Shown here: in pieces, positions 7,546 through 34,374 of the stretch
How the letters are laid out: every line of letters begins with the position of its first letter
Position numbering within the stretch: the first letter of the stretch is position 1
From: a virus
Length of the DNA: 35,992 nucleotides
Virus record (IMG/VR): IMGVR_UViG_3300027861_000094
Coordinates: 1 to 35,992 of that record
Reading direction: 5' to 3' (one strand)
Translations under genes and position numbers: made by a program
Notes under the pieces: generated by a model
Databases searched by the model: none
Told to the model about the DNA's origin: nothing
What the model saw: the letters and a program-made list of their open reading frames with translations, nothing else

Positions 7546-7550
7546 TAAAG

Positions 7551-9695: not shown

Positions 9696-9696
9696 T

Positions 9697-10098
9697 ATGT
9701 TTATAGAATCAAAAGAAAAAATATATACAGACATACCGTTATCGTTTACAGCTCATCCTGTGACTGGTAATGTTAAAACTCTCACAAACGCAGATTCAAT
9801 TATACAATCTGTTAAGAATATCGTTTTGACTAATTTTTTTGAAAGACCTTATGAGCCTTATCTTGGTGGTAATATTTACAATCGTTTATTTGATAATGTT
9901 GAATCTACTTATACACAATTTCTAATTGCTGAAGATATTACTACATCACTTGAAAACTATGAACCAAGAGCAGATATATTAAATGTTTCTGTATTTCCGG
10001 ATACCGACAGAAACACACTTAAAGTAAAAGTAAAATTCATTCCAGTAACCTCAGCAGAGCCCGTGACTGTCGATGTTATCGTAGAAAGAGTAAGATAA
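9697..10098 (+). CDS. 25: Baseplate wedge protein gp25
   Basis: The 133-residue protein matches T4 gp25 in size (132) and family (GPW_gp25). Diagnostic features are the early DIPLSFTAHPVTGNVKTLTN, the core VKNIVLTNFFERPYEPYLGGNI with the conserved ERP-x-x-P-x-x-G turn, and a C-terminal strand pair DILNVSVFPDTDRNTLKVKVKF. gp25 is a sheath-initiating wedge component that binds gp6 and gp53. It begins one base after the gp5 stop and is followed by gp6 after one base, the standard gp25-gp6 order. Confidence 0.93.
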   Translation: MFIESKEKIYTDIPLSFTAHPVTGNVKTLTNADSIIQSVKNIVLTNFFERPYEPYLGGNIYNRLFDNVESTYTQFLIAEDITTSLENYEPRADILNVSVFPDTDRNTLKVKVKFIPVTSAEPVTVDVIVERVR

Positions 10099-10099
10099 A

Positions 10100-16039: not shown

Positions 16040-19000
16040 ATGGCATTAGCAAATACTGGTAGTTTACAAACAGATTTTAATGTAGACCCTTATTATGATG
16101 ATTATGATGAGAGTAAAAACTTTCATCGTATTTTGTTTAAACCAGGTCTTGCTGTACAGGCACGCGAATTAACTCAACTACAAACAATTCTTCAAAATCA
16201 GATAGATCGTTTTGGCGAACACATTTTCAAAGAAGGTAGTGTTGTTAGTGGTAATGAATTAAATTATGATATTAATGCGAAATTTGTTCGTATACAAGAC
16301 GAGTTTTCCGGATCTGCTGTAACAGTTGCTGATTTTAAAAATTTAGAAATTTCTGGTGGTACTACTGGTATTAATGCGTTTGTTTTTGATTCAGCCGATG
16401 GTTCAGAAGCCGGATTGCCTGATACAAAAACTCTTTTTATTAAATATATTGATAGCGGTACTGATAATGTTACAACTGCTTTTGGAACTAGTGAAACTAT
16501 AACAAGTAATACGGGTAGTATACAAGCTACAACATTGGCTTCGGGTGCAACTGGAAATAGCGCAATTGTTACGTTAGGTTCAGGTATTATATTCGCAAAA
16601 GATAATTTTATTCGTGTTGACGAACAATCGATTGTAGTAAGTAAATATAGTGCAGATGCTTCACTAAAAGTAGGTTACACTATTACGGAAGAAATTGTTG
16701 TTTTTACAGACGATAATACACTTCTCGATCCTGCACAAGGTGCATATAATTATGCTGCACCTGGTGCCGATAGATTAAAACTTACAGCAACTTTAACAAC
16801 AAAAGAATTAAGTGATACGGCCGATGTTAACTTTGTTGAAAGACTTCGTTTAAATAAAGGAAGAATTGAACAGAAATTTGACAAACCAATTTATAACGTG
16901 ATCAATGATTATATCGCAAGAAGAACTTATGACGAGTCTGGTGATTACATCGTAAATGGATTGAATGTTAAATTAAGAGAACACTTAGATGATGAAAATG
17001 GTAACGGAGGATTTTTAAAGGTTGGTGATACTCCTGCTGGAAACGACCAATTATTGATTGTTGATGTAAATCCAGGTAAAGCATATGTTCGTGGTTACGA
17101 AACAGAAGTTTTAGTTACAGAACATGTTCCTATTGACAAAGGAATTGACTTTGTTCAAGTAGATGATGCCACATTCAGTGCAAATTATGGAAATTATGTT
17201 GTGGTGGATGAACTTGTAGGTTCATGGGACATAAACAATCATGGTAAAGTTGATCTGCGTAATACATTTCAAGGCGCAATTTCAAACAATGTGTTTTCGA
17301 CTGCTGGTGCATCTCCATTAGGAACAAAAATAGGTGAAGCAAGAGTAAGAGCTTTAGATCATGTTTCTGGTTCAAAGGGGGACAAAGACACTACTTATAA
17401 TATGTATTTGTACGATATTCAAATGACTTCAAATACATTTAGTCAAGTTAAAAGTATTGTTTCTGATGATGGTACTATTGATGGTGTTGCTGATGTTGTT
17501 ACAGTTTCAAATAATGCTGTATTGAAGGATTCTGCGTTTAACACAGCTTTAGTAAAAGTTCCAGGATCTTATATTAAAAGTTTAAAACCTTCTGGTACAA
17601 CTGATACTGATTGGATATTTTTAAGAAAATTTGAAAATATTTCTGTTACTAGTGGCGTTTTCTCATTAACATCATCTGAACTATCGGCCGATGAAGAATT
17701 TACTGTTTCTTCCTTTCCTTCAGAAACACAAAGACAAGAACTATTTCATGTTTATGTAGATAATGGTTCGGCCGCAAATACTACCAATTACGATACTAGT
17801 GCAACTCTTTCGGGAAATACGGTTAGTAGTTTGACTTCTGCGACTACAAAATATAATGCTGGTGATGTAATTCAAATTGGAACAGATGCTAATTATCGAT
17901 TCAGTGTAGATAACGTCGATAGTACTACACAATTAACTGTCACAAATAAAAATAATCTTAGTTCTGGTGCAAATAATGTTTATAAAGTATTTTTACCAGG
18001 ACAGACGGTATCTCTAGGAGGTTTTGGTGGTTCTACTGTTGCCAGATCCGGAACATATACTGATTCTCAAAACATTCAATTTGATTTAAAAGAACCGACT
18101 CTTGGCACAACAGTTGATATTATTGCTGAATTGAAAAAGGTCAATAAGGGCGAAACAACAAAGACTCTACAGGCAGACAAATTCGTTGAGATTGATATTT
18201 CTACTAACTCGGCCAGTACATCTGGTCCATGGATTCTTGGTGCACCAGACGGATATAGATTAAAAGAAGTTCGTTTCAGTAGTTCAACTTTTACATCTGA
18301 AACGGACGGCACAGATGTTACTTCTGATTTTGAATTAGACACTGGTATGAAGGACAACTATTACGATCTAGCTAAACTTAAATTAAAATCTACTTCAACA
18401 AGAACAATCGGCGGTACAGATTTTTATCTTGTTAAATTCGATTACTTTACTAGATCTGCAAAGGATACTTTCTTCTCTGTAGATTCATATGATGGAGTTG
18501 TAGAGTTAGAAGATATCCCAATTTATGTTTCTCCCGTAACCGGCGAATCTTACGATTTAAGAAACTATGTTGATTTTAGACCATATACTTCAGTTTCCGC
18601 TTCTCCTCCTAATGTCTTTGCGTCTAAACCAACAAATCCGGGTTCATCGCTCGGACTAGATACCACAACAGGTGGCTTTAGATTTATTGCTCCTAATGAA
18701 TCTGTTACCTCTTCTTTCACCTATAATCTTCCTAGAAAAGATAGAGTTATCATTACATCGAAGGGTGAGATGAGAGTTATTCGTGGAGTATCATCTTTAA
18801 ATCCACAGACACCATCTGTTCCTAGTGACGGTTTAACATTAGCCATTCTTGACATTAGACCAAATCCATCTCTTCCATATGATAATGCAATCGCAATCAA
18901 TAGAGAAGATTTGGCCAATGAAGTAACACCAGTAAGACAAGTTCGTTATACAATGCGTGATATTGGTGTATTGAAAAATAGAATTGAGAATTTAGAATAC

Positions 19001-21874
19001 TACACATCGCTTTCACTATTAGAAAATGACACCAAGAATCTCACAATATCCGATGCAAATGGATTAAATCGTTTTAAAAACGGAATTCTTGTAGATCAAT
19101 TCACAGGCCATAATATTGGTAATGTAAAAAACTTGGACTATAAGATTTCTGTTGATCCTAAAAACAACGAGATTCGTCCAACATTTAAGAACTATGATGT
19201 TACATTCTCTTACAATAGTGGTGCTTCCGGTACTACTAAAACCGGTAGTCTCGTCACCTTACCTTATACAGAAGATAAATTAATATCACAGCCATTTGCT
19301 TCTGATAATCGTAATTTGACAAGTCTTTTCTATAGCTTTAATGGTGTGGTCCAGTTAAATCCAGAAACTGATTATTGGGTTGATACCACAACATCACCAG
19401 ATGTTCAGATCAATTTTGATTTCAATACAGATGCGTGGAATAGATTATCTAATTCATGGGGAACTGAATGGGGTAGTTGGTCAAATATTTGGTCAGCTAC
19501 TTCATCTTCAACTACTTCAAATCAGTGGCAAGTAAACACTGTTGCTACGACTCAAACTGGTCAAGAAAGAACTGGTATTCGTACAACAGTTGGTGTTCCT
19601 CTCACACAAGAGCAAAGTATTGGTGAATTTGTAAAAAATGTAAATGTTATACCTTTCATGCGTTCTCGTGTGATTGAAGTGGTCGCTGATGGTTTAAAAC
19701 CAAACACTCGTGTTTACCCATTCTTTGATGATACAACAGTTTCTTCTTATTGTACACCAGCAAATTCATCTTTTGCTAACACCGCGACAGAAGGTTCAAA
19801 TCTGATTACTGACGCTACTGGTAAATTATATACGCTATTCAGAATTCCTAATGAAAATGGTTTAAGATTTAGAACAGGTTCTTTGATATTTAAATTATCT
19901 GATAGCGTAACAGGGCGAGAAAATAGTACCACATTTGCTTCTACTCGTTATACTGCTGACGGTCTTTCACAAGAAGTTGGTGAAACGATAATAAGTACTA
20001 GAAGGCCTAATATTGAGTTACAAACAGTAACTGAAAATAGAGTAATTACTAATAGTACGACAAGAGTAACGAATATTTCTCCTCCTTGGCAGGAATTCTC
20101 GGAGACGAATGACGGCGATCCATCCTTTGATCCTTTAGCCCAAACATTCATTCTTAATTTAAGGGGTACTGAATTCGGATCTTCTTCTGGTGCATTTTTA
20201 ACCAAACTGGATCTATTCTTCCAGAGTAAAGATTCTACATCGCCGATTATTGTAGAAATAAGAGAAGTTGATGCAAGTACTTCTTTTATTACGAAAAGAA
20301 TTGTGCCTTTCGGTAGAGTTGTTGTTCCCGCTTCAAGTATTAATGCAGATTCAAGTGATTCTACTGTTGCAACAACTATCACATTTGATACACCAGTATA
20401 TCTGTTCAATGAACAAGAATATGCATTTGTTGTAAAACCTGGTGGTAATGCACCTAATTTTAGTCTTTGGATTTCAAGACTCGGTGAAAATGATTTAGCT
20501 ACAGGCAATCGTATTGATAAACAACCATACTCTGGTATCTTATTTGCATCTTCAAACGATAGAACTTATAGTCCTATACAAGAAGAAGATGTTAAGTTCA
20601 ATGCATACTTTGCTAATTTTGGTACAGGTTCTACACAAACTGCTGTTTTCCATAATGCTAACAACGATTTCTTAACGGTTAACAATGTGACGGGAACTAA
20701 ACTAACTACTGTTGGTGAAGAAGTACATGGAGAAACTGAACTTGTATTAGACAGCAATATCATTGGAGCAAATGTCGGTGAAGATTTGGTGGATATTGTT
20801 ACAGGCGCAAATGGTGAAATTACATTTACAAACGGAACTGGTACATTTAGGCTTAAAAATGTAACAACGACTAAATTCACTACAAGTAATACAGTTATTT
20901 TATTTCAAGGCGGTGTTGAACAATCTTCAAATAATGCTGTTATTAACAGTCAAACAACACCTATTGGTAAAACAAAACTTTATGACGATTTGAACTTTGC
21001 GAATACTGTTTTACATTTGAGCGATTCAAATGGTCAATTTGATGCTGGTACTTGGGTAAAAGGACAAACTAATTCGGGACAAGCTTACATTGTTTCTGTA
21101 GATGATTTTGAAGTTGATTTGTTCCATACACATTTAAGTAGTTTGGAATTAGAAAAAACTTCTTTGACTGCACAAGCAAAACTAGCAAATAGTCCTACTG
21201 CTGCGGGCACTTTTAAGGACATAAACATTAACAATGATACTTCACCCGAATCTAGAAAATACATTCTTTCTAGATCAAACGAAATTGATGAAGCTGCATT
21301 TTTAGGTGATGAGTCGGTCGATGTTAATGTTGTATTTAAAAATACGATAAATCCTTATCATTCTCCTGCGATTGATGCCGATAGAGCTGCATTCTTTACT
21401 GTAGAAAACTTGATAAACAACGATTCTACTGGTGAAGATGGTGCATCTGGTGGTAACGCAGAAGCTAGATATATCACAAAAACAATCACACTTGCAGAAG
21501 GTCAAGATGCTGAAGATTTAAAAGTTTATCTAACTGCATATAAATCATCTACGAGTGATGTGAAAGTTTATACAAAAGTTCTAAATGCGGAAGATGGAGA
21601 TGATTTTGAAGTGAGTAATTGGATTGAAATGACTCGCTCTTCGGCTACATCCGAACTTTCAGATTCTGAAGATGTATTTGATTATAAAGAATACGAGTAT
21701 GATATTCCAACCGCAAGCTTGACCGGTACAAATGGCGAAATACAATATACAAATTCGCAAAATGTTACCTATACAGGATTTAAACGATTTGCAATTAAAA
21801 TAGTTCTTCTTTCAAGCAATACTGTAAAACCACCAAAGGTAAAGAATTTGAGAGTTATTGCACTTCAAATATAA
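16040..21874 (+). CDS. Giant DUF4815-type virion structural protein, gp10 position
   Basis: This is the largest gene in the window (1944 residues). Residues about 12-72 (FNVDPYYDDYDESKNFHRIL, KPGLAVQARELTQLQTILQN, DRFGEHIFKEGSVVSG) are the hallmark of the DUF4815 family of T4-like marine phage structural proteins. Around residues 960-1010 comes a conserved coil region (VRQVRYTMRDIGVLKNRIENLEYYTSLSLLE). Near residues 1330-1520 a jelly-roll-like section (DPLAQTFIL, FLTKLDLFFQSKDSTSPIIVEIRE, YLFNEQEYAFVVKPG) may bind other baseplate or fibre parts. It follows gp8, where T4 has gp9/gp10, so a peripheral baseplate or short-fibre attachment role is likely, but there is no visible gp10 similarity. 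Confidence 0.75.
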   Translation: MALANTGSLQTDFNVDPYYDDYDESKNFHRILFKPGLAVQARELTQLQTILQNQIDRFGEHIFKEGSVVSGNELNYDINAKFVRIQDEFSGSAVTVADFKNLEISGGTTGINAFVFDSADGSEAGLPDTKTLFIKYIDSGTDNVTTAFGTSETITSNTGSIQATTLASGATGNSAIVTLGSGIIFAKDNFIRVDEQSIVVSKYSADASLKVGYTITEEIVVFTDDNTLLDPAQGAYNYAAPGADRLKLTATLTTKELSDTADVNFVERLRLNKGRIEQKFDKPIYNVINDYIARRTYDESGDYIVNGLNVKLREHLDDENGNGGFLKVGDTPAGNDQLLIVDVNPGKAYVRGYETEVLVTEHVPIDKGIDFVQVDDATFSANYGNYVVVDELVGSWDINNHGKVDLRNTFQGAISNNVFSTAGASPLGTKIGEARVRALDHVSGSKGDKDTTYNMYLYDIQMTSNTFSQVKSIVSDDGTIDGVADVVTVSNNAVLKDSAFNTALVKVPGSYIKSLKPSGTTDTDWIFLRKFENISVTSGVFSLTSSELSADEEFTVSSFPSETQRQELFHVYVDNGSAANTTNYDTSATLSGNTVSSLTSATTKYNAGDVIQIGTDANYRFSVDNVDSTTQLTVTNKNNLSSGANNVYKVFLPGQTVSLGGFGGSTVARSGTYTDSQNIQFDLKEPTLGTTVDIIAELKKVNKGETTKTLQADKFVEIDISTNSASTSGPWILGAPDGYRLKEVRFSSSTFTSETDGTDVTSDFELDTGMKDNYYDLAKLKLKSTSTRTIGGTDFYLVKFDYFTRSAKDTFFSVDSYDGVVELEDIPIYVSPVTGESYDLRNYVDFRPYTSVSASPPNVFASKPTNPGSSLGLDTTTGGFRFIAPNESVTSSFTYNLPRKDRVIITSKGEMRVIRGVSSLNPQTPSVPSDGLTLAILDIRPNPSLPYDNAIAINREDLANEVTPVRQVRYTMRDIGVLKNRIENLEYYTSLSLLENDTKNLTISDANGLNRFKNGILVDQFTGHNIGNVKNLDYKISVDPKNNEIRPTFKNYDVTFSYNSGASGTTKTGSLVTLPYTEDKLISQPFASDNRNLTSLFYSFNGVVQLNPETDYWVDTTTSPDVQINFDFNTDAWNRLSNSWGTEWGSWSNIWSATSSSTTSNQWQVNTVATTQTGQERTGIRTTVGVPLTQEQSIGEFVKNVNVIPFMRSRVIEVVADGLKPNTRVYPFFDDTTVSSYCTPANSSFANTATEGSNLITDATGKLYTLFRIPNENGLRFRTGSLIFKLSDSVTGRENSTTFASTRYTADGLSQEVGETIISTRRPNIELQTVTENRVITNSTTRVTNISPPWQEFSETNDGDPSFDPLAQTFILNLRGTEFGSSSGAFLTKLDLFFQSKDSTSPIIVEIREVDASTSFITKRIVPFGRVVVPASSINADSSDSTVATTITFDTPVYLFNEQEYAFVVKPGGNAPNFSLWISRLGENDLATGNRIDKQPYSGILFASSNDRTYSPIQEEDVKFNAYFANFGTGSTQTAVFHNANNDFLTVNNVTGTKLTTVGEEVHGETELVLDSNIIGANVGEDLVDIVTGANGEITFTNGTGTFRLKNVTTTKFTTSNTVILFQGGVEQSSNNAVINSQTTPIGKTKLYDDLNFANTVLHLSDSNGQFDAGTWVKGQTNSGQAYIVSVDDFEVDLFHTHLSSLELEKTSLTAQAKLANSPTAAGTFKDININNDTSPESRKYILSRSNEIDEAAFLGDESVDVNVVFKNTINPYHSPAIDADRAAFFTVENLINNDSTGEDGASGGNAEARYITKTITLAEGQDAEDLKVYLTAYKSSTSDVKVYTKVLNAEDGDDFEVSNWIEMTRSSATSELSDSEDVFDYKEYEYDIPTASLTGTNGEIQYTNSQNVTYTGFKRFAIKIVLLSSNTVKPPKVKNLRVIALQI

Positions 21875-23295: not shown

Positions 23296-24174
23296 ATGCC
23301 ATTTTGGAATCCATTGATTGGTGGTAGCAAGGTTTTAGAGTTAGATTATTCTGATCCTGAATCAGGTACTTTATCAGCCTTTAATCTTTACGATTATGTA
23401 AATACTACATTAGGTGATCCTACTGGAGCAACAACAACGGGTTATTCTAAAGTTATTGTTAATATTCCTAATGAATATTATTTTGGATCACCTACTCCTG
23501 GCACCGCATCATTTGATGTTGGAAATTTTGGATCTAATCAAGATATAGAAATTAACTTAGACGGATATATAATTGGCCATGCTGGTTCTGGAGGTGCAGG
23601 TGGCGGTGCCGCTCAACCTAATCCTCCTGGCAGTCCGGGTCAATCTGGAGGCATTGCTTTGTCAAATCCGGGTCAAGCAAAATCTGTAACATTAGATGTT
23701 TCTCCTACCGGATTATTAGCAGGAGGTGGTGGAGGTCAAGGAGGACAAGAGGGGGGAAATGTTTTTAATCCTCCGGGTGGCGAGGAAACTCCTGGTTTTT
23801 CGCAGGGCGCATCTGGTTCACCTGGTCTAGGTGGCGCAGGTTGGCAAAAAGCTCCTAATGGCTCATTTACTAGTCCAGCTACTCCTGCTCCTAGACCGGA
23901 TGGTCCTGGACCCTGGTCTTTTAGAACTAGTTCTCCTGGAGGATATTTGGGACAATCTGGCCCAGCTGGACCCCAAAATCCAACCACTTTCTATCCAGGA
24001 ACAACACCTGGTTCTGGAGGTTCTACTGGTCCTTATGTAGTGGGTCCAACTACAGGAATAAATACTTTAACGATAAATAATCCAGCAAGTAGAGTTTATG
24101 GTCCAAATGTTAATCCTTTAGGATCTACTCATCCTTTGGGTTCACAACCAGGTGGACCTTCTACACCAACTTAA
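23296..24174 (+). CDS. Gly/Pro-rich adhesin-like tail fibre tip protein (gp38-like architecture)
   Basis: The first 85 residues look folded (MPFWNPLIGGSKVLELDYSD, SKVIVNIPNEYYFGSPTPG). From residue about 88 the protein is dominated by glycine and proline: INLDGYIIGHAGSGGAGGGA, VTLDVSPTGLLAGGGGGQGG, then SPGLGGAG, SSPGGYLGQSGPAGPQNP. The 'IxGxGGxGGxGG ... GLIxGGGGGGG' pattern is that of polyglycine-sandwich adhesins on phage fibre tips (T2/S16 gp38 type) and of glycine-rich phage receptor-binding domains. It probably contacts the host receptor. Much of the C-terminal half has collagen-like but irregular Gly-Pro spacing. An AAGGAG site precedes the ATG, and the gene follows a fibre gene by 13 bases. 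Confidence 0.7.
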   Translation: MPFWNPLIGGSKVLELDYSDPESGTLSAFNLYDYVNTTLGDPTGATTTGYSKVIVNIPNEYYFGSPTPGTASFDVGNFGSNQDIEINLDGYIIGHAGSGGAGGGAAQPNPPGSPGQSGGIALSNPGQAKSVTLDVSPTGLLAGGGGGQGGQEGGNVFNPPGGEETPGFSQGASGSPGLGGAGWQKAPNGSFTSPATPAPRPDGPGPWSFRTSSPGGYLGQSGPAGPQNPTTFYPGTTPGSGGSTGPYVVGPTTGINTLTINNPASRVYGPNVNPLGSTHPLGSQPGGPSTPT

Positions 24175-24192: not shown

Positions 24193-24732
24193 ATGTATGC
24201 GAAAATAGTTAACTCTTCTTCCGACCAAAATAACTTAAATGAATCTGATTTAATTTTTATTGATAATCCTAAATCTTTAGTGGATTTTAATGGTATTCAA
24301 TATCCTCTTTCCGTTCTTCGAAATTTTACGAACGAAAAAATTTATAATCTTTTTGGTTTATTAAGTGTTGAGAGTAATAATGATTATACTGAATGGAATA
24401 GTGATATTCAAGATAGAGTTATAAGCCATTATTATGTGTCTAATTATGTTCTTTATAAAAATCTTGTTCTTCAAAACAAATCTCAAGAAATTATTGATGA
24501 AGTAAATGTTAAAAGGGAATTTGAAGCTTCTATCGAATATAGAAAACAAAGAAAAGAGGCATATATATCTGAAATATCACCCGAACAGGATCCTGTAACT
24601 ACTTTGGGTGATGTTGTTGATGCTCTGTATCAAGCAATTTATCACGGCGAAGTTGATAAATTAAATGATCTTGCTTTAAAAATAGAAAATATTAAAGAAA
24701 GATATCCTAAACCCACAGCAAATACTGCATGA
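24193..24732 (+). CDS. Possible tail-fibre assembly protein
   Basis: This 179-residue acidic protein has a small beta-rich N-terminal half (LIFIDNPKSLVDFNGIQYPL) and a helical C-terminal half (EFEASIEYRKQRKEAYISEISPEQDPVTTLGDVVDALYQAIYHGEV), ending KIENIKERYPKP. The final pattern, a helix followed by (K/R)ERYPKP, occurs in phage proteins encoded just after fibres and thought to help fibre assembly, but I cannot name a specific family with confidence. It follows the adhesin gene by 18 bases and overlaps the sulfotransferase start by four bases (ATGA), so expression of the enzyme island is tied to the fibre operon. Confidence 0.55.
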   Translation: MYAKIVNSSSDQNNLNESDLIFIDNPKSLVDFNGIQYPLSVLRNFTNEKIYNLFGLLSVESNNDYTEWNSDIQDRVISHYYVSNYVLYKNLVLQNKSQEIIDEVNVKREFEASIEYRKQRKEAYISEISPEQDPVTTLGDVVDALYQAIYHGEVDKLNDLALKIENIKERYPKPTANTA

Positions 24733-24992
24733 ATTCTTTTTATCTTTATGGTATGCCTAGATCCGGTACTTGGTTTTTAGAACATTTAATTTGTCAAAAT
24801 TTTAAAATAAAAAGAAGTTTTGGTCCAAATGGATATGGTAAACATTATTCAACGCCAGATCCGGGCCATAAATGTGAAGATCCTATATTAGTGATTTATA
24901 AGAATCCTTATAAATGGATAGAGTCTTTTATTTTTCGTGTGGATTGGTTTGTAGCCTCCGTTATAAGAAAAAAAAAATTGAAAACGTTCTGA
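24729..24992 (+). CDS. Sulfotransferase, N-terminal part, ending at an A10 frameshift
   Basis: The 87-residue frame begins MNSFYLYGMPRSGTWFLEHL. The motif GMPRSGTWFL is the 5'-phosphosulfate (PAPS) binding loop of the sulfotransferase superfamily, and ILVIYKNPYKWIESFIF matches the second region that holds the 3'-phosphate. The frame is lost just after a run of ten A at 24968-24977 and stops at TGA 24990-24992. The continuation is present in the -1 frame (next entry); if joined there, the product would be about 265 residues, a normal size for a small sulfotransferase. It could be a real pseudogene, a slippage-controlled gene or a homopolymer sequencing error. The start overlaps the upstream gene by four bases. 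Confidence 0.75.
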   Translation: MNSFYLYGMPRSGTWFLEHLICQNFKIKRSFGPNGYGKHYSTPDPGHKCEDPILVIYKNPYKWIESFIFRVDWFVASVIRKKKLKTF

Positions 24993-25525
24993 AATATAAT
25001 ACTAATGTAGTGATGAAAAATGTAACAGAAAGAATGTTGGAAAATCATTTAAGTCAAGATCCTCTCAAAGTTATGGAAAAAGGTAGTAATGAACCCATTG
25101 TACTCGAAAATGATGATTTGAATAATGAATTTTTACATAAAATGGGTTTAATAATAAATCAGAAATATCTTGCTTTGTATTGGAAAAAACATTTTGAAAC
25201 TTTTAATAAACTTCAAAATAAAGAAATAATTTACTATGAAAATTTACTTTCGTTGAAAAATCGCGTAAAATTGTTGAATGTCATTCAACAAAAATATAAT
25301 TTTGAACCCATAAGTAATGAATGGAATATAGAAGTATTTGATGTGACTTCTTCGCCTCACTATAACGAAGGTGAAATGAACCCTTATTATCAACAAAAAA
25401 ATGTATTTAAATTTTTAAAAAATAATCATTTGAGACTTATAAATGAATGTTTTGAAAATAATTGGTTGAATACAAATACACAATATGAGACAATTTATGA
25501 AATTTCCGATTACCATAGTTCCTAA
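24914..25525 (+). CDS. Sulfotransferase, C-terminal part in the -1 frame
   Basis: This frame continues the sulfotransferase after the A10 tract: KKIENVLKYNTNVVMKNVTE, later LALYWKKHFETFNKLQNKEIIYYENLLS, a pattern (W-K-x-x-x-E-x-x, then I-x-Y-E-x-L) typical of the region after the PAPS sites in sulfotransferases. The residues from the open-frame ATG at 24914 up to the A-run (MDRVFYFSCGLV) are the out-of-frame reading of the N-terminal part and are not expected to be made. Without a frameshift the first usable ATG is at 25013, with no clear ribosome site, so independent expression is doubtful. The end overlaps the next gene. Confidence 0.65.
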   Translation: MDRVFYFSCGLVCSLRYKKKKIENVLKYNTNVVMKNVTERMLENHLSQDPLKVMEKGSNEPIVLENDDLNNEFLHKMGLIINQKYLALYWKKHFETFNKLQNKEIIYYENLLSLKNRVKLLNVIQQKYNFEPISNEWNIEVFDVTSSPHYNEGEMNPYYQQKNVFKFLKNNHLRLINECFENNWLNTNTQYETIYEISDYHSS

Positions 25526-26162
25526 TTTTTTCAGTGATGCCCGAAAAATTTTAAAAATAGCCAACGAACTAGATTATAACTTTGATGCTCCTACTTATCC
25601 TGGTAAAAAAACAATATTTTTAAATCATGTAAATATGGATTTATTTTATTATTTAAGTAGAAAAGTTTTAAATCTTTTTTTTGAAATAGACGACGAAATT
25701 GGAAAATTGCGATATGATGATGTTGAATGGTCTTTTCATAAAATAACATACGATGATATAAAAGATATGAGAAATGGTGAGTTATTCATACATAAAGATC
25801 ATTACGAACATTTAACAGGATTAATATATCTATCAAATAATGAAAAATTAGGCACATCATTCTTTCTTAATGAAAGAGTTCCTTATTTTAGTATGAAAAA
25901 TGGACCAACGTGTGGATTAGATAAAAGTATTTCTGACGAAGAAATGGAAATTCTGTATAAAGAAAATAATGAAAATTATAAACTTATGTCTGAAGTAAAA
26001 CATATTTTTAATACAGCTGTTATATTTCCGGGTTGTGTTCCTCATAAAATTAATTTAGAAGATTTAAAACCAGGTGAGGAAAGATTAACTTTACACTTTT
26101 TATTTCGCGAAATAAGTTATCACACCTTTCCCTATGTTAGATGTAAACTAGAAGATTTGTGA
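25497..26162 (+). CDS. Putative 2OG-Fe(II) oxygenase-like protein, paralogue 1
   Basis: From the ATG at 25497 the protein is 221 residues and starts MKFPITIVPNFFSDARKILK, aligned with the start of its neighbour (MKFNFPLTVVDNFFENPYAV); an earlier in-frame ATG at 25485 would add four residues. A candidate facial triad is H99-x-D101 (in ELFIHKDHYEH) and H183 (in FPGCVPHKIN), inside a double-stranded beta-helix pattern: LTGLIYLSNN, GTSFF, NTAVIFPG. A family of such proteins with this N-terminus is common in marine phages and bacteria. The substrate is unknown. It overlaps the sulfotransferase end by 29 bases, and the next paralogue starts six bases after its stop. Confidence 0.65.
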   Translation: MKFPITIVPNFFSDARKILKIANELDYNFDAPTYPGKKTIFLNHVNMDLFYYLSRKVLNLFFEIDDEIGKLRYDDVEWSFHKITYDDIKDMRNGELFIHKDHYEHLTGLIYLSNNEKLGTSFFLNERVPYFSMKNGPTCGLDKSISDEEMEILYKENNENYKLMSEVKHIFNTAVIFPGCVPHKINLEDLKPGEERLTLHFLFREISYHTFPYVRCKLEDL

Positions 26163-26168
26163 GAAATT

Positions 26169-26852
26169 ATGAAATTTAATTTTCCTTTAACGGTAGTTGA
26201 TAATTTTTTTGAAAATCCTTATGCTGTCATGGAATACGCAAATAGTTTAAATTATTTTAACGAACGAAGAAATTTTCCAGGCAAAAGAACAACTGATTTA
26301 TATCAAATTAATCGAGATTTTTTTAATTCAATTAACAACAAAATATTATCGATTTTTTTTGATAGAGAAAAGTCTATTGAATCAGAAAGTTGTATATTTT
26401 TTCAAAAAGAAACTTACGAAGAATTGGAAAAAATGGGAAAGGCCGCACATTGGATACATCATGATGTGGAGTATGATTTAATTTTTATAGTCTATTTAAA
26501 TCCTAATTTAAATGCTGGAACTTCAGTCTATAAACAAAAAAGAGATTTTGCTATATCTCCTCACAATTTTAATGGTCCTTCTCTTTTTTATGAAAAAAAT
26601 ATGAGTTTAAAGGATATAGATAAAATTTATAAAGAACACGTCGAATATTATGAATTGATATCATTATGTAACGGTAATTTCAATACAGCTTTTATATTTC
26701 CATGTAAATTAGCACATGCAGCAAATGTTATCGATAATGTTAAAAAGCAAGATCGTTTATTTTTAATAGGAATGATGAGAAATTTTATTTCAGAAAAAAT
26801 GCCGTTAGATCAATATAATTATTATAAACATTATTCAAGACATTTTAGTTGA
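26169..26852 (+). CDS. Putative 2OG-Fe(II) oxygenase-like protein, paralogue 2
   Basis: The 227-residue protein is a diverged tandem paralogue of the previous gene. It shares the start (VVDNFFENPYAVMEYANSLNY), the PGKRTTDL segment matching PGKKTIFL, the motif AHWIHHDVEYDLIFIVYLNP with H97-x-D99 (or H98-D99), GTSVY, and FNTAFIFPCKLAHAANV with H183 as the distal ligand. The spacing of the triad equals that of paralogue 1, which supports a shared metal site and fold. Substrates are unknown and may differ. Its stop is three bases from the stop of the convergent oxygenase gene on the other strand, and no obvious terminator hairpin lies between them. Confidence 0.65.
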   Translation: MKFNFPLTVVDNFFENPYAVMEYANSLNYFNERRNFPGKRTTDLYQINRDFFNSINNKILSIFFDREKSIESESCIFFQKETYEELEKMGKAAHWIHHDVEYDLIFIVYLNPNLNAGTSVYKQKRDFAISPHNFNGPSLFYEKNMSLKDIDKIYKEHVEYYELISLCNGNFNTAFIFPCKLAHAANVIDNVKKQDRLFLIGMMRNFISEKMPLDQYNYYKHYSRHFS

Positions 26853-26855
26853 TCT

Positions 26856-27428
26856 TTATCTATAATGACTTCCTCCTACCCAACAAACTAAACTTTTTCT
26901 TTCGCCTTTATTAATTCTTTTAGCTTTATGTAAAGTATAACTAGGAAAAATATTTAAACTTCCCTGCTGTTTAGGTAATAAAATGGGGTTTTTTCCTGTT
27001 TTTATTAATGTTCCTCCTCCTTTATAGTCATATTCGTTTGTTAAATTTACAACACAACTAATTTTTCTGTGTGAAGATTTTTCATTTCCATTATCTACAT
27101 GCCAATCATAATGGCCATTTTTCGTATATCTGGTTAATTGTATATGTTCGTGAAAATTTTCTAACTCAAAATGCCAAATACGGGAGTTAGCTTCTTCTAT
27201 ATGATATTTTAATCTTTCCCATATCCAAGTTAAATCTTGTTTAAAATATAACCAAAAAACATCTGCATCTCTAACTTCTTTATTTCTTGATTTGCTTCCG
27301 TGTGTTAAACCATCTTCCCATTGCCATGCTAAAGAACATATATAATTACACTCTTCTTGATTAAATATATTTTCGTATGAAATGAATGGTTGAAAATTTG
27401 TCAAGTAAGGTTTGTTCAGTTGTAGCAT
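26856..27428 (-). CDS. Prolyl 4-hydroxylase-like 2OG-Fe(II) oxygenase
   Basis: The 190-residue protein has the full P4H-type motif set: H110-V-D112 in YDWHVDNG, H167 in FPSYTLHKAKRI, and R177 (or K178) in NKGERKSLVCWVGG as the likely 2-oxoglutarate anchor. Between these lie the strands KISCVVNLT and YKGGGTLI, as in the 2OG-FeII_Oxy superfamily. Such proteins are frequent in T4-like cyanophages near tail genes; their targets are not established. The gene is on the opposite strand from its left neighbours, has a GAGGT site before the ATG, and its start is only 21 bases from the divergent start of the next oxygenase. Confidence 0.85.
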   Translation of the reverse strand: MLQLNKPYLTNFQPFISYENIFNQEECNYICSLAWQWEDGLTHGSKSRNKEVRDADVFWLYFKQDLTWIWERLKYHIEEANSRIWHFELENFHEHIQLTRYTKNGHYDWHVDNGNEKSSHRKISCVVNLTNEYDYKGGGTLIKTGKNPILLPKQQGSLNIFPSYTLHKAKRINKGERKSLVCWVGGSHYR

Positions 27429-27449
27429 ATTTACCTCGGAGAAAGAGAA

Positions 27450-28118
27450 ATGAAAAAATTAAATGATTTTTTTAATGAAAACGGTTACGTTATTGTTAAA
27501 GATTTTATTTCTACAGATATATTGCAGTCGCATTATCATTATCTTTTAGATATGTATAAAGAAGGAAAAATGAGTGTTGATAAAAATCAAGTTGTGGGAA
27601 ATTTGACTTTAAGAGATGATATTGTTTTTGATACATTATTATCCAAAATGAGACCCCTTATTTCTAAAGTTGTTGATAAAGAACTGTGGCCAACATATGC
27701 CTTTACCAGATTATATAGAAATGGTGAGAAATTAAAAAAACATACTGACAGAGAATCTTGTGAATATAGTATTAGCCTCACTTTAGGTTTTTCAAATGGT
27801 AGAGGAATTTGGCCAATATATCTTAAAAATAAAGAGGGTAAAACAATAAAAACAAAATTGGAAATAGGAGAGGCTTTAATTTATACCGGCCGTGATTTAC
27901 CGCATTGGAGAAAGAAATTCAAAGGCGATCATTATGTACAAACTTTCTTACACTATGTGGATTCAGAAGGTCCTTATAAAGAATGGGTTTTTGATAAAAG
28001 ACAAGGTCTCAATTCTTTAGATTATGATATAAATTTTAATTTTGAAAAAACTGGTAGAAATGTGGACGAATATGAAAGTTTTTATGAAGATAAATCATTT
28101 GATGAAATTATATTGTGA
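27450..28118 (+). CDS. 2OG-Fe(II) oxygenase-like protein (HxD...H type)
   Basis: The 222-residue protein opens MKKLNDFFNENGYVIVKDFI, the 'NGYVVVKNF' start typical of phytanoyl-CoA-hydroxylase-like and related oxygenases. The triad candidates are H98-x-D100 in LKKHTDRESCEYS and H152 in GRDLPHWRKKFKG; the beta-strand before the distal His reads GEALIYTG. YVQTFLHYVD closes the barrel. The final 40 residues are polar. It is distinct in sequence from the P4H-like gene and from the two tandem paralogues, so the island has at least three oxygenase subfamilies. A GGAG site precedes the ATG. The 3' end overlaps the convergent PP-loop gene by 24 bases. Confidence 0.75.
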   Translation: MKKLNDFFNENGYVIVKDFISTDILQSHYHYLLDMYKEGKMSVDKNQVVGNLTLRDDIVFDTLLSKMRPLISKVVDKELWPTYAFTRLYRNGEKLKKHTDRESCEYSISLTLGFSNGRGIWPIYLKNKEGKTIKTKLEIGEALIYTGRDLPHWRKKFKGDHYVQTFLHYVDSEGPYKEWVFDKRQGLNSLDYDINFNFEKTGRNVDEYESFYEDKSFDEIIL

Positions 28119-28883
28119 AGAATATATTTTTTTAAAATTATAAACATAATCTATTTTACTTTTTTGTCTCATTATACAAAAATGACATGTACCACATCCT
28201 TTTTTATTTTTTTTATAGTGATCAATCGTGTAATTAGTAGATAAACATTGTTCCGAATGATATAATATATTTACCATAACTTGATCATTTTGTATTTTTT
28301 TTATATCGTTTACCGGATTTGTTCCAGACATAGAGGTATTTCTATCTTCATGTTTTAAAAATATTTTATAAAAATCTGTATTTTTTATGTCAGTTTTATT
28401 TTGTTTAAAAACCTCTTGATGATAGATATGAAAATCTCTATCGTCAAAACATGATCTATATAACTTATTTTCAAAAAATTTGTCTAAAAAAATAGCATAT
28501 TTTCCTAAATAATACTTAGGAAAATTAGAAGCTCTTTTCATTTGTAAATATATAAAATTTTTTGTTTGATTATTTTTATTCGAAATAACTTTTTCTTCTA
28601 CGGTTTTATAAAAAGAAGTTTCTATTATTTCTTTAAATATATCAGTATAATCATAATCTAAATCTGTTAAATCATATGTTTCAAAATTTTCTAAAATAGA
28701 ATTGTTGAAAATATTTTCTCTCATTAAATCTGAAACTATTTTCATAACTTCGATATTTCTTTGTGTTACAATATCATTACGATTCCAAATCAAAAAAATA
28801 GGCCTCACATTTATACCTCTTCTTAAGCAATCCATGATACTTAATGAGTTAGACATTCCTCCTGACCAAAAATGATTTATCAT
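28095..28883 (-). CDS. QueC-like PP-loop protein with altered ATP motif
   Basis: The 262-residue protein starts MINHFWSGGMSNSLSIMDCL. The PP-loop usually reads SGGxDS; here it is SGGMSNS (residues 7-13), lacking the Asp at its normal position. Four cysteines near the C-terminus (C213, then C230, C233 and C236 in GCGTCHFC) have the spacing of the QueC zinc site. QueC makes 7-cyano-7-deazaguanine (preQ0) from a carboxy precursor using ATP; relatives act on other substrates. The altered motif and low similarity elsewhere mean the activity is uncertain; it could be a degenerate partner of the intact paralogue next door. It overlaps that gene by four bases (ATGA) and the convergent oxygenase by 24. 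Confidence 0.65.
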   Translation of the reverse strand: MINHFWSGGMSNSLSIMDCLRRGINVRPIFLIWNRNDIVTQRNIEVMKIVSDLMRENIFNNSILENFETYDLTDLDYDYTDIFKEIIETSFYKTVEEKVISNKNNQTKNFIYLQMKRASNFPKYYLGKYAIFLDKFFENKLYRSCFDDRDFHIYHQEVFKQNKTDIKNTDFYKIFLKHEDRNTSMSGTNPVNDIKKIQNDQVMVNILYHSEQCLSTNYTIDHYKKNKKGCGTCHFCIMRQKSKIDYVYNFKKIYSSQYNFIK

Positions 28884-29560
28884 AATAAATTTAATCTATT
28901 AAGGTTAATATAATGATGAATTTTTGAATTGTGAATTTCTAAGCATTTAATACATTTATTACAATATTTTTTTGTCTTTTTATAATTTAAAATATTACGA
29001 CAACTTACAGTATTTTCAAACATAAAATTCAATAGATCAAAATCTACGTTTTTAATATCTTCAACACATTCTCTTTTTGTTTTATCGCAATTTGCCCATA
29101 CTATTCTATTCATAAAATAAAGTTCGGATTGAATTATTTTTTTATTTTTTATTTCTATGTTGTTTAACATGTCTGTTATTAAACGCGAATCCTTTTCACA
29201 ACCTATAGATATTTCTATATCATGTGTATTAGTATATTCTATTAAAGTATTGAGTATATCATAATGCCAAATTACAGAAGAACCGGTAGTTTCATCTCTA
29301 AAAATATTAATTCCTTTATTATCAAATTTTTTTATTTCATTTTGTATTTCTTTAGATCTTTTCCTTTCTATGACATCAATAAAAATAGGTTCTTTTATTT
29401 TTTCAAAATGGGTAACAAATTTGTTTAAACATTGTATTTGAATTTTGTTAAAAACCCCTTCTCTTTTTACATAAATTGGTTGAACAGTTTCGCCATTTAA
29501 TATATATTTTAAAACTACATATGCACTATCTAGTCCTCCAGAGAAGGCTACATACTTCAT
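28880..29560 (-). CDS. QueC-like PP-loop ATPase (intact SGGLDS motif)
   Basis: The 226-residue protein begins MKYVAFSGGLDSAYVVLKYI with an intact PP-loop (SGGLDS, residues 7-12) that binds ATP in the N-type ATP pyrophosphatases. Near the C-terminus C187, C200, C203 and C206 (VSCRNI, YCNKCIKCLE) match the QueC zinc-site layout, and the length fits QueC (about 220). The section after ISIGCEKDSRLITDML, however, lacks the GYPDCR-type residues usual in preQ0 synthase, so the substrate may differ. No QueD, QueE or tRNA/DNA transglycosylase is seen nearby. The start codon touches the TAA of the 50-residue upstream gene, and the stop overlaps the second PP-loop gene. Confidence 0.75.
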   Translation of the reverse strand: MKYVAFSGGLDSAYVVLKYILNGETVQPIYVKREGVFNKIQIQCLNKFVTHFEKIKEPIFIDVIERKRSKEIQNEIKKFDNKGINIFRDETTGSSVIWHYDILNTLIEYTNTHDIEISIGCEKDSRLITDMLNNIEIKNKKIIQSELYFMNRIVWANCDKTKRECVEDIKNVDFDLLNFMFENTVSCRNILNYKKTKKYCNKCIKCLEIHNSKIHHYINLNRLNLL

Positions 29561-29713
29561 TTATTTTTTGGGTTCTGGTGCAATCATGGGACTCGCGTGT
29601 AAAGGTAGTTGCGTTGAACTAATATTTTTACCTATCTTGGTTCTTGTAAGTAAATTTTTATTGATAATTTTTTTATTATTAATTAAATTATTCTTAAATT
29701 TTATTTGATTCAT
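29561..29713 (-). CDS. Small Lys/Asn-rich peptide (50 aa) heading the PP-loop operon
   Basis: A 50-residue frame runs from the ATG at 29713 (GAAAGAG ribosome site upstream) to the TAA at 29561-29563, which directly abuts the next ATG (TAAATG). The first 30 residues are rich in Lys, Asn and Ile (MNQIKFKNNLINNKKIINKN); the end is different, with LPLHASPMIAPEPKK. There are no Cys residues and no recognisable domain. The perfect abutment, the ribosome site and its place first after a late promoter make it a probable real gene rather than chance. It might be a substrate, partner or regulator of the PP-loop enzymes; nothing in the sequence proves which. Confidence 0.6.
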   Translation of the reverse strand: MNQIKFKNNLINNKKIINKNLLTRTKIGKNISSTQLPLHASPMIAPEPKK

Positions 29714-29750: not shown

Positions 29751-29775
29751 ATGTGACATTTTTGATAAGTCACAT
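29751..29775. repeat. Inverted repeat ATGTGAC-N11-GTCACAT between divergent late operons
   Basis: A perfect seven-base inverted repeat with an 11-base spacer lies between the late promoter pair and the 50-residue gene. The expected leftward start (near 29772) falls inside the right arm, so the transcript would not carry the whole hairpin. A DNA-level operator or a weak terminator are both possible. Confidence 0.5.
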
Positions 29776-29777
29776 TT

Positions 29778-29785
29778 TATTTATA
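29778..29785 (-). promoter_or_regulatory. T4-type late promoter box (TATAAATA), leftward half of a palindrome
   Basis: An exact TATAAATA on the minus strand, 65 bases before the ATG of the 50-residue gene. It shares two bases with the rightward box, so TATTTATATAAATA at 29778-29791 is a perfect palindrome. Confidence 0.65.
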
Positions 29786-29791
29786 TAAATA
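29784..29791 (+). promoter_or_regulatory. T4-type late promoter box (TATAAATA), rightward half of a palindrome
   Basis: An exact TATAAATA 28 bases before the gp15 ATG at 29820, the usual distance in this window. Confidence 0.75.
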
Positions 29792-29819: not shown

Positions 29820-30974
29820 ATGCTCGGTCATCAATACTGTCACAGCATCATTCGCAAGTATGTTATCGCTTTCGGCAACCTCTTCAATGATATTGTAATA
29901 CAAAGATTCGATAAAGATGGAGATCGCATTCAGACGATTGCGGTTCCTTTAGCCTATTCCCCGAAAGAAAAATTTATTGTACGACTTCAACAAGATCCAG
30001 ACCTCGAAAGAGATGTAGCCATTACTCTACCTCGTATGGGTTTTGAAATCACATCGTTTAACTATGCTCCAGAAAGAAAACTGGCATCCACGCTTCGCAA
30101 CATTAAAGTACCTTCACCGGGCTCATCTACAGTTAGCACACAATATGTTCCTGTACCGTATGATTTAACATTTTCCTTACATTCTTTTTGTAAACACACA
30201 GAAGATGCTACACAAATATTAGAACAAATATTACCGTATTTTAGGCCAGAATTTACAACAAATGTGAAAATTTTACCAGATATGGACATTGTTGTAGATG
30301 TGCCTGTAATACTGAATTCTGTAGCACCAGAAGATTTATATGAAGGTGATTTTCAAACAAGACAGGCTCTCGTTCATACACTTGACTTTACACTGAAAGG
30401 TTATATGTATGGACCTGTTACAAATAAGGGTGTTATCACTCGATCAATCGTAAATATACGCGAAGGCGCAGTTGCTAACACTTCGGCACCAATTTTTGAA
30501 AGAATTATTGTTACGCCATCTGGATCAGTAATTGATACAGAAGGATTTGGGTTCTCTTCAAGCTTAGCAACATCAACTACATCGTTTTCTACATCTACCA
30601 CGAATACACTAAACCTTCGTTTATACGATAAGGATGAATCTAATTTCATCAATCTAAAAGCACCGGATGTGTTAAATAGTAATTATACACTAACACTACC
30701 TACAGATGATGGAGGAGAAGGTCAAGTATTAAAAACAGATGGTAATGGTAATTTAAGTTGGGTAGATGTGTCTGGTGTAACAGATGTGTTTGATCAAATC
30801 AAAATACAACCAGAAAGTGCAGCTGGTGTTGATGAATATATGACTGAGGTTTTAGGTGATATAAGTGGCACGGTATCAAACAATGAGCTGGCAACAGCTC
30901 ATGCGATTAAGACTTATGCAAACACTGTAACGAGTGATGCGATATCAGAATTGGACGGAGGGACATTCCCTTAA
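29820..30974 (+). CDS. 15: Tail sheath stabiliser gp15 with fibre-like C-terminal extension
   Basis: Residues 1-230 match T4 gp15 throughout: MLGHQYCHSIIRKYVIAFGN, LFNDIVIQRFDKDGDRI, VPLAYSPKEKFIVRL, TLPRMGFEITSFNYAPERKL, STVSTQYVPVPYDLTFSL, TEDATQILEQILPYFRPEF and FTLKGYMYGPV. gp15 forms the hexameric ring that closes the tail tube and sheath and binds the neck. T4 gp15 is 272 residues; this is 384. The extra part (about 235-384) has fibre-type sequence: DESNFINLKAPDVLNSNYTLTLPTDDG, GQVLKTDGNGNLSWVDVSG, similar to the fibre encoded at 31209. The gene follows a late promoter, and a small coiled-coil gene follows after 12 bases. Confidence 0.88.
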   Translation: MLGHQYCHSIIRKYVIAFGNLFNDIVIQRFDKDGDRIQTIAVPLAYSPKEKFIVRLQQDPDLERDVAITLPRMGFEITSFNYAPERKLASTLRNIKVPSPGSSTVSTQYVPVPYDLTFSLHSFCKHTEDATQILEQILPYFRPEFTTNVKILPDMDIVVDVPVILNSVAPEDLYEGDFQTRQALVHTLDFTLKGYMYGPVTNKGVITRSIVNIREGAVANTSAPIFERIIVTPSGSVIDTEGFGFSSSLATSTTSFSTSTTNTLNLRLYDKDESNFINLKAPDVLNSNYTLTLPTDDGGEGQVLKTDGNGNLSWVDVSGVTDVFDQIKIQPESAAGVDEYMTEVLGDISGTVSNNELATAHAIKTYANTVTSDAISELDGGTFP

Positions 30975-31208: not shown

Positions 31209-32075
31209 ATGGCGTCAACAATTAAACTAAAAAGAAGTACTACTACCGGTGCTATACCCACATTTAGTACTGATTTAGTAGAAGGCGAAATAGCACTTAA
31301 CTTAAAGGACAAGATCCTTTATGCTGCAAATAGTACTGCTGTTTTTGAACTTGCGAGAAACACTGCGAACAACGGTTTGGTTCTTCACGACGGTAGTGGC
31401 AATGAGATTACAATAACAGCTCCATCAATTGCTGGTGATTATAGTTTGACGTTACCAATAGATGATGGTACTTCAGGACAATTTCTGCAAACAGACGGTA
31501 CTGGCGTTTTAAGTTGGGATGCTCCTACTGGTACTGTTGCCTCTGTTGGTGCTGGTGTAGGTTTGTCGGATAGTGGCACAGCTTCCGATCCTGTACTCAA
31601 CGTAAATACTAATGAAGGCCTTGCTGTTGTATCAGATAATGTGGGATTGAAAAATGGTAGTGCTTTTAGTGATAACACAATTTTAGTTTGGGATGATGGT
31701 AATTCACAATTTATAAATTCGGCTATTACGGATAATTCAACTTTAGTAACTATTAATAGTGATACTACAATTACAGGCGATCTTACCGTTTCTGGAACAA
31801 CTACAACTTTAGATGTAACAACAGTTGCTATTGAAGATCCTATTGTAAAATTCGCAAACAATAACACTGCTGATACCACTGATATCGGTTTTTATGGAGA
31901 ATATAATAAAGCTACTACAGTAAAATATGCAGCTTTTTTCAGAGATACTACGGATAAAAGTTGGAAAGTGTATAATGAATTAACAAACGAACCAATTATT
32001 GCTGGTGGTGATATTGTTTTAACTGGCGGTTCTTTAGCTCAACTTGATGCAGTAATTGACGGCGGTACTTACTAA
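31209..32075 (+). CDS. Tail-fibre protein with Mtd_N-like N-terminus (1)
   Basis: Residues 1-50 (MASTIKLKRSTTTGAIPTFS, DLVEGEIALNLKDKILYAAN) form the short N-terminal domain common in phage fibre and tropism proteins (Mtd_N-like). This is followed by ITAPSIAGDYSLTLPIDDGTSGQFLQTDGTGVLSWDAPTG and Thr-rich shaft sequence (TITGDLTVSGTTTTLDVTTV) ending in a small globular domain (DIGFYGEYNKATTVKYAAFFRDTTDKSWKVYN). The YSLTLP-DDG and TDG-LSW strings also occur in the gp15 extension. The 288-residue length suits a short shaft or an adaptor rather than a complete long fibre. An AGAGG site precedes the ATG. Confidence 0.75.
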   Translation: MASTIKLKRSTTTGAIPTFSTDLVEGEIALNLKDKILYAANSTAVFELARNTANNGLVLHDGSGNEITITAPSIAGDYSLTLPIDDGTSGQFLQTDGTGVLSWDAPTGTVASVGAGVGLSDSGTASDPVLNVNTNEGLAVVSDNVGLKNGSAFSDNTILVWDDGNSQFINSAITDNSTLVTINSDTTITGDLTVSGTTTTLDVTTVAIEDPIVKFANNNTADTTDIGFYGEYNKATTVKYAAFFRDTTDKSWKVYNELTNEPIIAGGDIVLTGGSLAQLDAVIDGGTY

Positions 32076-32093
32076 TTTAGAGTATAATTTTTT

Positions 32094-32810
32094 ATGGCTT
32101 CTGAAATAAAATTAAAACGCAGTGGTGTTTCTGGTTCTAAACCGACCACCACTGACCTATCCGATGGCGAAATCGCGGTCAATACCCGTGATAATATCGT
32201 ATTCGTTGCGAATACTACACATGTATTTGAAGTAGGAAGTGTTTTAACCACAAATACAACAATAGGTTCTACGCCAGCAGTTTTTGTAGATACAACAAAC
32301 GATAGACTAGGTATTGGTAAAAACAATCCCTCTTATGCGTTAGATGTTACGGGTGATATAAATTTATCAAACGGCATTCGTATAAACGGTGTTGCTGGCA
32401 CTGATGGTCAAATGTTGGCTGCAAATACAACAGGTGGTATTGAGTGGCGAGATGATGTAGAAGTTTATAATCACACCTGGGCTGTTGCTGGTAATATTAC
32501 CGCGGCCGCATTACCGTGTATGTTTGTGTTAACAGGTAATACAGTAGGCTATAACGAAGTTGTTGAGTTTGGTAGATATCGTGCGAAGATTAATTCTGGA
32601 ACAAGTGTGGATGTTAAGTTTCAGAAAAATGGTGTAGATATTCCAAGTTCAAGTCAAACAATTACTACCGCAAAACAGACAATCACTGCATTTACAGCAA
32701 ATACTATGGTAAACGAAGATGAACTTACAGTTGTAACAAGTTCACCCAGTGGTTCACCTGTAGATTTATCTGTAACTGCGTTTTTTACTAGAAAGAGATA
32801 TATTGATTAA
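32094..32810 (+). CDS. Tail-fibre protein with Mtd_N-like N-terminus (2)
   Basis: The 238-residue protein repeats the N-terminal domain of the previous gene (MASEIKLKRSGVSGSKPTTT, LSDGEIAVNTRDNIVFVANTT) and then has one fibre repeat (VDTTNDRLGIGKNNPSYALDVTGDI) of the type present twice in the fibre encoded at 22098. The C-terminal 110 residues (YNHTWAVAGNITAAALPCMFVLTGN, GRYRAKINSGTSVDVKFQKNG) are predicted beta-sandwich and may be the receptor or partner binding head. The stop shares a base with the start of the next gene (TAATG), so translation is probably coupled. Confidence 0.75.
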   Translation: MASEIKLKRSGVSGSKPTTTDLSDGEIAVNTRDNIVFVANTTHVFEVGSVLTTNTTIGSTPAVFVDTTNDRLGIGKNNPSYALDVTGDINLSNGIRINGVAGTDGQMLAANTTGGIEWRDDVEVYNHTWAVAGNITAAALPCMFVLTGNTVGYNEVVEFGRYRAKINSGTSVDVKFQKNGVDIPSSSQTITTAKQTITAFTANTMVNEDELTVVTSSPSGSPVDLSVTAFFTRKRYID

Positions 32811-34372: not shown

Positions 34373-34374
34373 AA

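Follow-up and report, generated by a model that had tools for sequence, protein, structure and literature searches.

Putative prolyl-hydroxylase-like oxygenases and a glycine-rich tail-tip-like gene in the host recognition cluster of a marine T4-like virus

Among the accessory genes of marine phages that still lack an explanation, those for oxygenases dependent on 2-oxoglutarate (2OG) and Fe(II) are some of the commonest, and they are usually classed as auxiliary metabolic genes. We analysed a group of such genes, lying between the tail-fibre block and the tail sheath stabiliser gene gp15, in a 35,992-base virus record of IMG/VR (IMGVR_UViG_3300027861_000094, class linear), which is probably a fragment of a genome and is called the window below. 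In pelagimyophages and cyanomyophages the region from VrlC to the neck genes has been named the host recognition cluster; it is hypervariable and carries tail fibres together with unrelated modification genes such as radical SAM cassettes and glycosyltransferases (Zaragoza-Solas 2020, PMC7029224). A 2OG oxygenase adjoining a "ferrochelatase" has already been published for pelagiphages, i.e. HTVC023P-type podophages (Wittmers 2022, PMC9599517), and glycine-rich tips of the polyglycine II (PGII) type are receptor-binding in T2-type phages (PMC12892980). New here are the recurrence of two of the oxygenase families, F61 and F2954, as a pair, the prolyl-4-hydroxylase-like fold predicted for F2954, and the tie of the pair to glycine-rich tips.

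The window contains T4-type baseplate, tube, neck and sheath-stabiliser genes, and its gp15 is 46% identical to those of Pelagibacter phage Mosig and of cyanophages and 86% identical to those of two IMG/VR contigs (L004 and L005). The initial annotation had described an accessory island of modification enzymes on both strands, lying between the fibre block and gp15 among late structural genes, and the open reading frames (ORFs) bear out both the genes and their location (Table 1). The interval is part of the known hypervariable host recognition cluster of marine T4-like phages and no self-contained island. It lies between VrlC (16040-21874) and gp15 (from 29820); gp14 itself was not identified within the window, while in the nearest relative, contig G001 (locus L004), gp13 and gp14 come after gp15. 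Window and G001 share about 80% DNA identity over much of 4841-12759, which comprises baseplate genes, whereas the tip gene and the island have no counterpart there. Homology to G001 returns at 29770, just ahead of the gp15 promoter. This right border is sharp, while on the left, between 4841 and 22094, protein identity declines gradually from 95% (7551-9695) through 67%, 54% and 46% to about 40% in VrlC. A DNA-level search of the interval against phages gave no match, and thus no near cultured phage for this interval.

The same slot carries different cargo in related phages. In G001 (L004:6698-9947, all on the minus strand) it holds two glycosyltransferase-like proteins, so labelled by eye and without Pfam match, a radical SAM-SPASM protein and one unknown protein. 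HTVC008M has six minus-strand genes at this place, namely one hypothetical gene, one annotated ferrochelatase and four annotated 2OG oxygenases, and Mosig has a run of oxygenases with a haem oxygenase and a bilin (phycocyanobilin) reductase. Minus-strand cargo in the late region is therefore usual for the slot. Two further cassettes resembling that of Mosig were seen (L106:10290-11596 and L140:10635-11712), with haem oxygenase and phycocyanobilin reductase just 3' of the hydroxylase pair. The window differs from the published cargo of the cluster in its oxygenases, its QueC-like pair and its sulfotransferase-like gene, and a link between a glycine-rich tip and a defined hydroxylase pair is not mentioned in the available sections of PMC7029224.

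Table 1. Features of the window bearing on the analysis, with coordinates, strand and the evidence for each.
Feature	Position	Strand	Evidence
VrlC-type protein (phrog_358), left border of host recognition cluster	16040..21874	+	hmmscan phrog_358 1322 bits; annotated VrlC at matching place in HTVC008M
Gly/Pro-rich tail-tip-like protein, 292 aa, proposed substrate	23296..24174	+	composition; position as for Gly_rich_2 (PF21722) tips of HTVC008M and Mosig
179-aa protein between tip and island	24193..24732	+	weak phrog_2687 match
Sulfotransferase-like gene, frame broken	24729..25525	+	PF00685 on N-terminal piece only
DUF6445 oxygenase-like protein a	25497..26162	+	PF20043 E 2.6e-7; phrog_1644 E 1.2e-16; HxD..H..R conserved
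DUF6445 oxygenase-like protein b, 32% identical to a	26169..26852	+	PF20043 E 7.4e-12
F61, PKHD/prolyl-4-hydroxylase-like 2OG-Fe(II) oxygenase (phrog_61)	26856..27428	-	PF13640 E 1.9e-14; phrog_61 E 7.9e-32; HxD..H..R conserved
F2954, 2OG-Fe(II) oxygenase, predicted prolyl-4-hydroxylase fold (phrog_2954)	27450..28118	+	phrog_2954 E 1.2e-48; AlphaFold model
QueCb, QueC-like, degenerate PP-loop SGGMSN, Cx16CxxCxxC	28095..28883	-	sub-threshold PF06508; sequence motifs
QueCa, QueC-like PP-loop protein, SGGLDS, Cx12CxxCxxC	28880..29560	-	phrog_1550 E 1.7e-8; QatC models E 1e-5 and 1.9e-6
50-aa frame ahead of QueCa	29561..29713	-	sequence
Overlapping divergent TATAAATA candidate late promoters (- for QueC operon, + for gp15)	29778..29791	both	motif occurrence
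gp15 tail sheath stabiliser, right border	29820..30974	+	phrog_227 E 4.7e-78

Four oxygenase-like proteins of at least three subfamilies had been proposed, and three subfamilies are found: DUF6445/phrog_1644 twice, phrog_61/PKHD once and phrog_2954 once. The HxD...H iron triad is invariant in the alignments of all three. In the PDB, the sequence profile of F61 hits both PKHD hydroxylases and prolyl-4-hydroxylases. For F2954, whose start lies 21 bases from that of F61 on the opposite strand, an alignment-based AlphaFold model (predicted local distance difference test, pLDDT, 88.4; predicted template modelling score, pTM, 0.84) has prolyl-4-hydroxylases as its best PDB fold matches, among them the Pseudomonas putida enzyme and PHD2 (E 6.5e-11, probability 1.00), and this predicted model displays the double-stranded beta-helix. 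From the profile matches of F61 and the fold matches of F2954, both are therefore protein-prolyl-hydroxylase-like proteins with intact iron ligands and putative activity. They share the fold and the HxD...H iron site with bacterial and viral prolyl-4-hydroxylases and PKHD hydroxylases (4j25, 4iw3, 5c5t, 3dkq, PiuC), but differ from these in being phage-encoded, in having a putative substrate only and, for F2954, in the low identity of 10-19% in the fold matches listed. The widespread "ferrochelatase" label of phrog_2954 is probably wrong, as the fold is prolyl-4-hydroxylase-like and no ferrochelatase match occurs among the families listed for 52 members. The public label "minor coat protein" of phrog_1644 looks wrong in the same way; both families carry the oxygenase-type HxD...H. 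DUF6445 protein b has homologues in 28 marine phage records, and the DUF6445 proteins gave no significant sequence match in the PDB.

We annotated 80 IMG/VR loci fetched by F2954, 71 of which could be tested for the presence of F61; dereplication collapsed F2954 at 70% identity. F61 lies within 3 kb of F2954 in 59 of the 71 loci (27 of 34 after dereplication), mostly directly upstream and on the same strand. The two are fused into single frames of 423-440 aa in three loci (L092, L093 and L094, with frames ending at 1662, 1595 and 3856), and PHROG 3531 matches both F61 and F2954. The same two gene families stand side by side in the pelagiphages of PMC9599517, where the partner is taken as a ferrochelatase; here it is modelled as an oxygenase with a prolyl-4-hydroxylase fold, and the pair is tied to an upstream glycine-rich tip gene.

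This tie was quantified with glycine-rich ORFs, defined as having at least 30 Gly in 100 aa, counting for each side the loci with enough sequence there. On the upstream side of F2954, 27 of 33 loci have the end of such an ORF at a distance of up to 5 kb; on the downstream side only 1 of 21 has the start of one over the same distance (Fisher p 1.5e-8). Because the loci are related to one another these p-values overstate independence, and the dereplicated figures are safer (11/15 upstream versus 0/15 downstream, Fisher p 5e-5). Glycine-rich ORFs occur in 46/80 F2954 loci compared with 6/78 gp15 control loci, with totals of 55 and 7 in sets of about equal total length. The link extends to cultured podophages, HTVC033P and HTVC023P, in which glycine-rich tips, a small MAHFA-type protein, 2OG oxygenases and F2954 follow in close order, and the tips of HTVC008M and Mosig are PF21722 glycine-rich proteins. 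A PPx(2-3)PPQG motif, conserved in 13 of the 55 linked tips and in none of the shuffles, is a candidate proline target. In the tip protein of the window, counts per 100 aa rise to as many as 33 for Gly and 11 for Pro. By composition it resembles the PGII glycine-rich, receptor-binding adhesin tips of S16 and PP01 gp38 and, unlike these, is also proline-rich. We know of no hydroxylase genes beside T2-type gp38.

Modification of virion tips, one of several roles suggested initially, is thus for the oxygenases the option favoured by comparison. On our best reading, to which we give about even odds, they hydroxylate the phage's own Gly/Pro-rich tip, and the island makes up the cargo-bearing end of the host recognition cluster. 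The stretch would then combine a tail-tip gene with tip-finishing enzymes in a marine T4-like (pelagimyophage/cyanophage-type) virus. F61 and F2954 would hydroxylate the tip protein late in infection, most likely on prolines, which may stabilise or diversify the receptor-binding tip, and the DUF6445 proteins would probably do similar work.

Several observations weigh against this. The window tip falls below Pfam detection, and PPx(2-3)PPQG is absent from it (it is simply proline-rich) as well as from the HTVC008M and Mosig tips. When F61, taken from a broader family, is considered alone, the association is less strong (26/50 upstream, 13/45 downstream, p 0.036), and L061 and L063 carry the pair on a short fragment without a glycine-rich ORF. 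There is no direct evidence for hydroxylation of any phage tip, and among the titles returned by a literature search on hydroxyproline in phage virions none was of such a paper. Shared hitch-hiking is another way in which genes of a variable region can come to lie together. Finally, the P. putida prolyl-4-hydroxylase was solved with elongation factor Tu (EF-Tu) as its partner, so that a host target is possible for the phage oxygenases.

The oxygenases might thus act on the host, on a protein such as EF-Tu, on surface polysaccharide to block superinfection or on free metabolites, and the cluster would be a dumping ground for accessory genes that happens to have the tip nearby. We regard this as possible but rather doubtful. 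The bacterial enzyme in complex with EF-Tu is among the closest solved folds, the slot also houses the glycosyltransferase-like and radical SAM genes of L004 and the haem oxygenase and phycocyanobilin reductase of Mosig, and for the glycosyltransferases of the cluster alteration of the host surface is proposed in PMC7029224. However, a host target leaves the directional link between F2954 and glycine-rich tips (27/33 upstream versus 1/21 downstream) and its recurrence in podophages unexplained.

The remaining island genes have other histories. The 179-aa gene that follows the tip overlaps the next ATG with its stop (ATGA). The sulfotransferase announced in the initial annotation does not hold up as an intact gene: the window's longest homopolymer, an A10 run (24968-24977), breaks it into two frames that overlap, at 24729-24992 and 24914-25525. 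The family was assigned from a P-loop-like PRSGTW motif together with a match of the 87-aa N-terminal piece to PF00685 that stays below the cut-off (E 0.012, 15.4 bits versus 22), and the joined protein has no noteworthy match in Pfam, the PDB, phages or IMG/VR. The break is possibly a site of slippage or phase variation, a pseudogene or an assembly error; a programmed frameshift was rejected, with no stable structure past the A10 run (z -0.95).

Together with the degenerate PP-loop of QueCb, this frameshifted gene could mark the island as mostly functionless, decaying cargo, recently acquired, AT-rich and partly broken, and its GC content of 25.5% compared with about 34% in the flanks fits such a history. 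We consider it very improbable, because the oxygenases retain long uninterrupted frames with their catalytic residues, the closely overlapping genes still have coupled starts, and the gap at third codon positions is small (GC 14-18% in island genes, 18-24% in neighbouring backbone genes). Given this closeness at third positions, GC content was also rejected as proof of recent transfer.

The initial description of two PP-loop proteins holds only by half. QueCa carries the SGGxDS phosphate-binding loop (SGGLDS), while QueCb has a degenerate SGGMSN, and PF06508 scores lie below the curated cut-off of 22 for both (20.7 and 16.8 bits). QueCa aligns end to end with a QueC profile, the PP-loop region reaches 72% probability in profile-profile comparison, and the two proteins are paralogous. 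Four cysteines are retained in each, spaced x12 and x16 instead of x8 (Cx8CxxCxxC). The indications of QueC kinship are weak yet consistent. The predicted 50-residue peptide was recovered as a 50-aa frame without noteworthy family match, whose TAA directly abuts the QueCa ATG, and QueCa and QueCb overlap by ATGA, so that translation of the three is probably coupled. The QueCa ATG comes straight after the 50-aa stop and no separate ribosome-binding site is evident before it, so that the 50-aa frame is probably translated.

With QatC (qatABCD) and Cap9 (type IV CBASS, cyclic-oligonucleotide-based antiphage signalling) the pair shares a QueC-like core, with the PP-loop in QueCa, and the four-cysteine site. 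It differs in its phage genome, its unusual cysteine spacing, the absence of recognised defence partners and of Cap9/QueC substrate motifs, and the missing N-terminal QatC extension of about 145 residues: the PP-loop stands at residue 7 in both proteins, while the QatC core begins at 145. The residues YxQxHxxE, VPxRN and YPDC are needed for preQ0 synthesis (PMC13329287), and all three substrate motifs are absent from QueCa in the profile alignment. Relatives of QueCa or QueCb were found neither by tblastn in phages, nor in IMG/VR scans with each protein and with the alignment of the two, in GTDB scans with each, or in a profile search of all fetched loci. A match of HTVC008M to the QueC-like profile was rejected, being an annotated NAD synthetase; the AlphaFold model of QueCa alone (pLDDT 41) was not used, and weak PADLOC matches of QueCb and the 50-aa peptide to Cas8a and PDC-M02B were taken as chance.

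The QueC-like proteins are most likely a pair that uses ATP for adenylation, in which one subunit would be active and the other structural; with the 50-aa peptide they would represent extra cargo seen only here. A bolder reading makes a QueCa/QueCb heterodimer and the peptide the core of an uncharacterised conjugation pathway, in which ATP activates a carboxylate that is attached to the peptide or a virion protein, comparable to deazaguanylation, which is reported for Cap9 and has been proposed for QatC. The tightly packed peptide-QueCa-QueCb operon, the paralogy of the two enzymes and the matches of QueCa to QatC and phage QueC profiles, together with its end-to-end alignment, speak for it. 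We judge it unlikely nonetheless, since the motifs of QueC and Cap9 that recognise 7-carboxy-7-deazaguanine (CDG) are missing, the QueCb loop is degenerate, no relatives turned up in the collections searched and the peptide lacks a Met-Gly start. No island protein has such a start, which within the window occurs only at 3881-4765, a tail tube cap homologue; N-terminal deazaguanylation of the peptide was rejected on this ground and for want of CDG motifs.

As to the late promoter use assumed initially, TATAAATA occurs at 29778-29791 in both orientations, of which the plus copy is conserved in the nearest relative L004 and the minus copy is not. The total of TATAAATA matches is no more than expected by chance, and support for these promoters thus comes only from their position. 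A hairpin near the gp15 promoter was not stronger than shuffles (z -1.27). The window gp15 has 384 aa, of which relatives match about the first 245 residues, and the additional C-terminal part (30480-30974) looks fibre-like. Further downstream (31209-35976), two neighbouring gene pairs have near-identical starts (MASTIKLKRS/MASEIKLKRS and MSTEKWTITY/MSTEKWILTF), which suggests tandem duplication of fibre-type genes.

Accessory modification enzymes do lie in the late structural region, but to call them an undescribed system was too strong. The place (PMC7029224) and the clustering of oxygenase with "ferrochelatase" (PMC9599517) are published, and the genes are not one unit. F61, F2954 and glycine-rich tips travel together, while DUF6445 accompanies them in only 3 of the 80 loci. 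No fetched locus shows them in company with the sulfotransferase-like gene, the QueC-like pair or the 50-aa peptide. With such different histories, one undescribed system is not supported.

More speculatively, and with considerable doubt, we suggest that the tip and its hydroxylases form a portable cassette across marine tailed phage morphotypes, which would hydroxylate proline-bearing loops of polyglycine adhesins before release and which here would be extended by a QueC-like heterodimer conjugating a further group to the peptide or the tip. If true, the cassette would serve host-range tuning or tip stability by post-translational means. The link between the hydroxylase pair and glycine-rich tips is proposed to give 2OG oxygenases of marine phages a concrete role in virion maturation and host recognition. 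The presence of the pair beside glycine-rich tips in many ocean viruses suggests that these viruses chemically finish their own tail tips.

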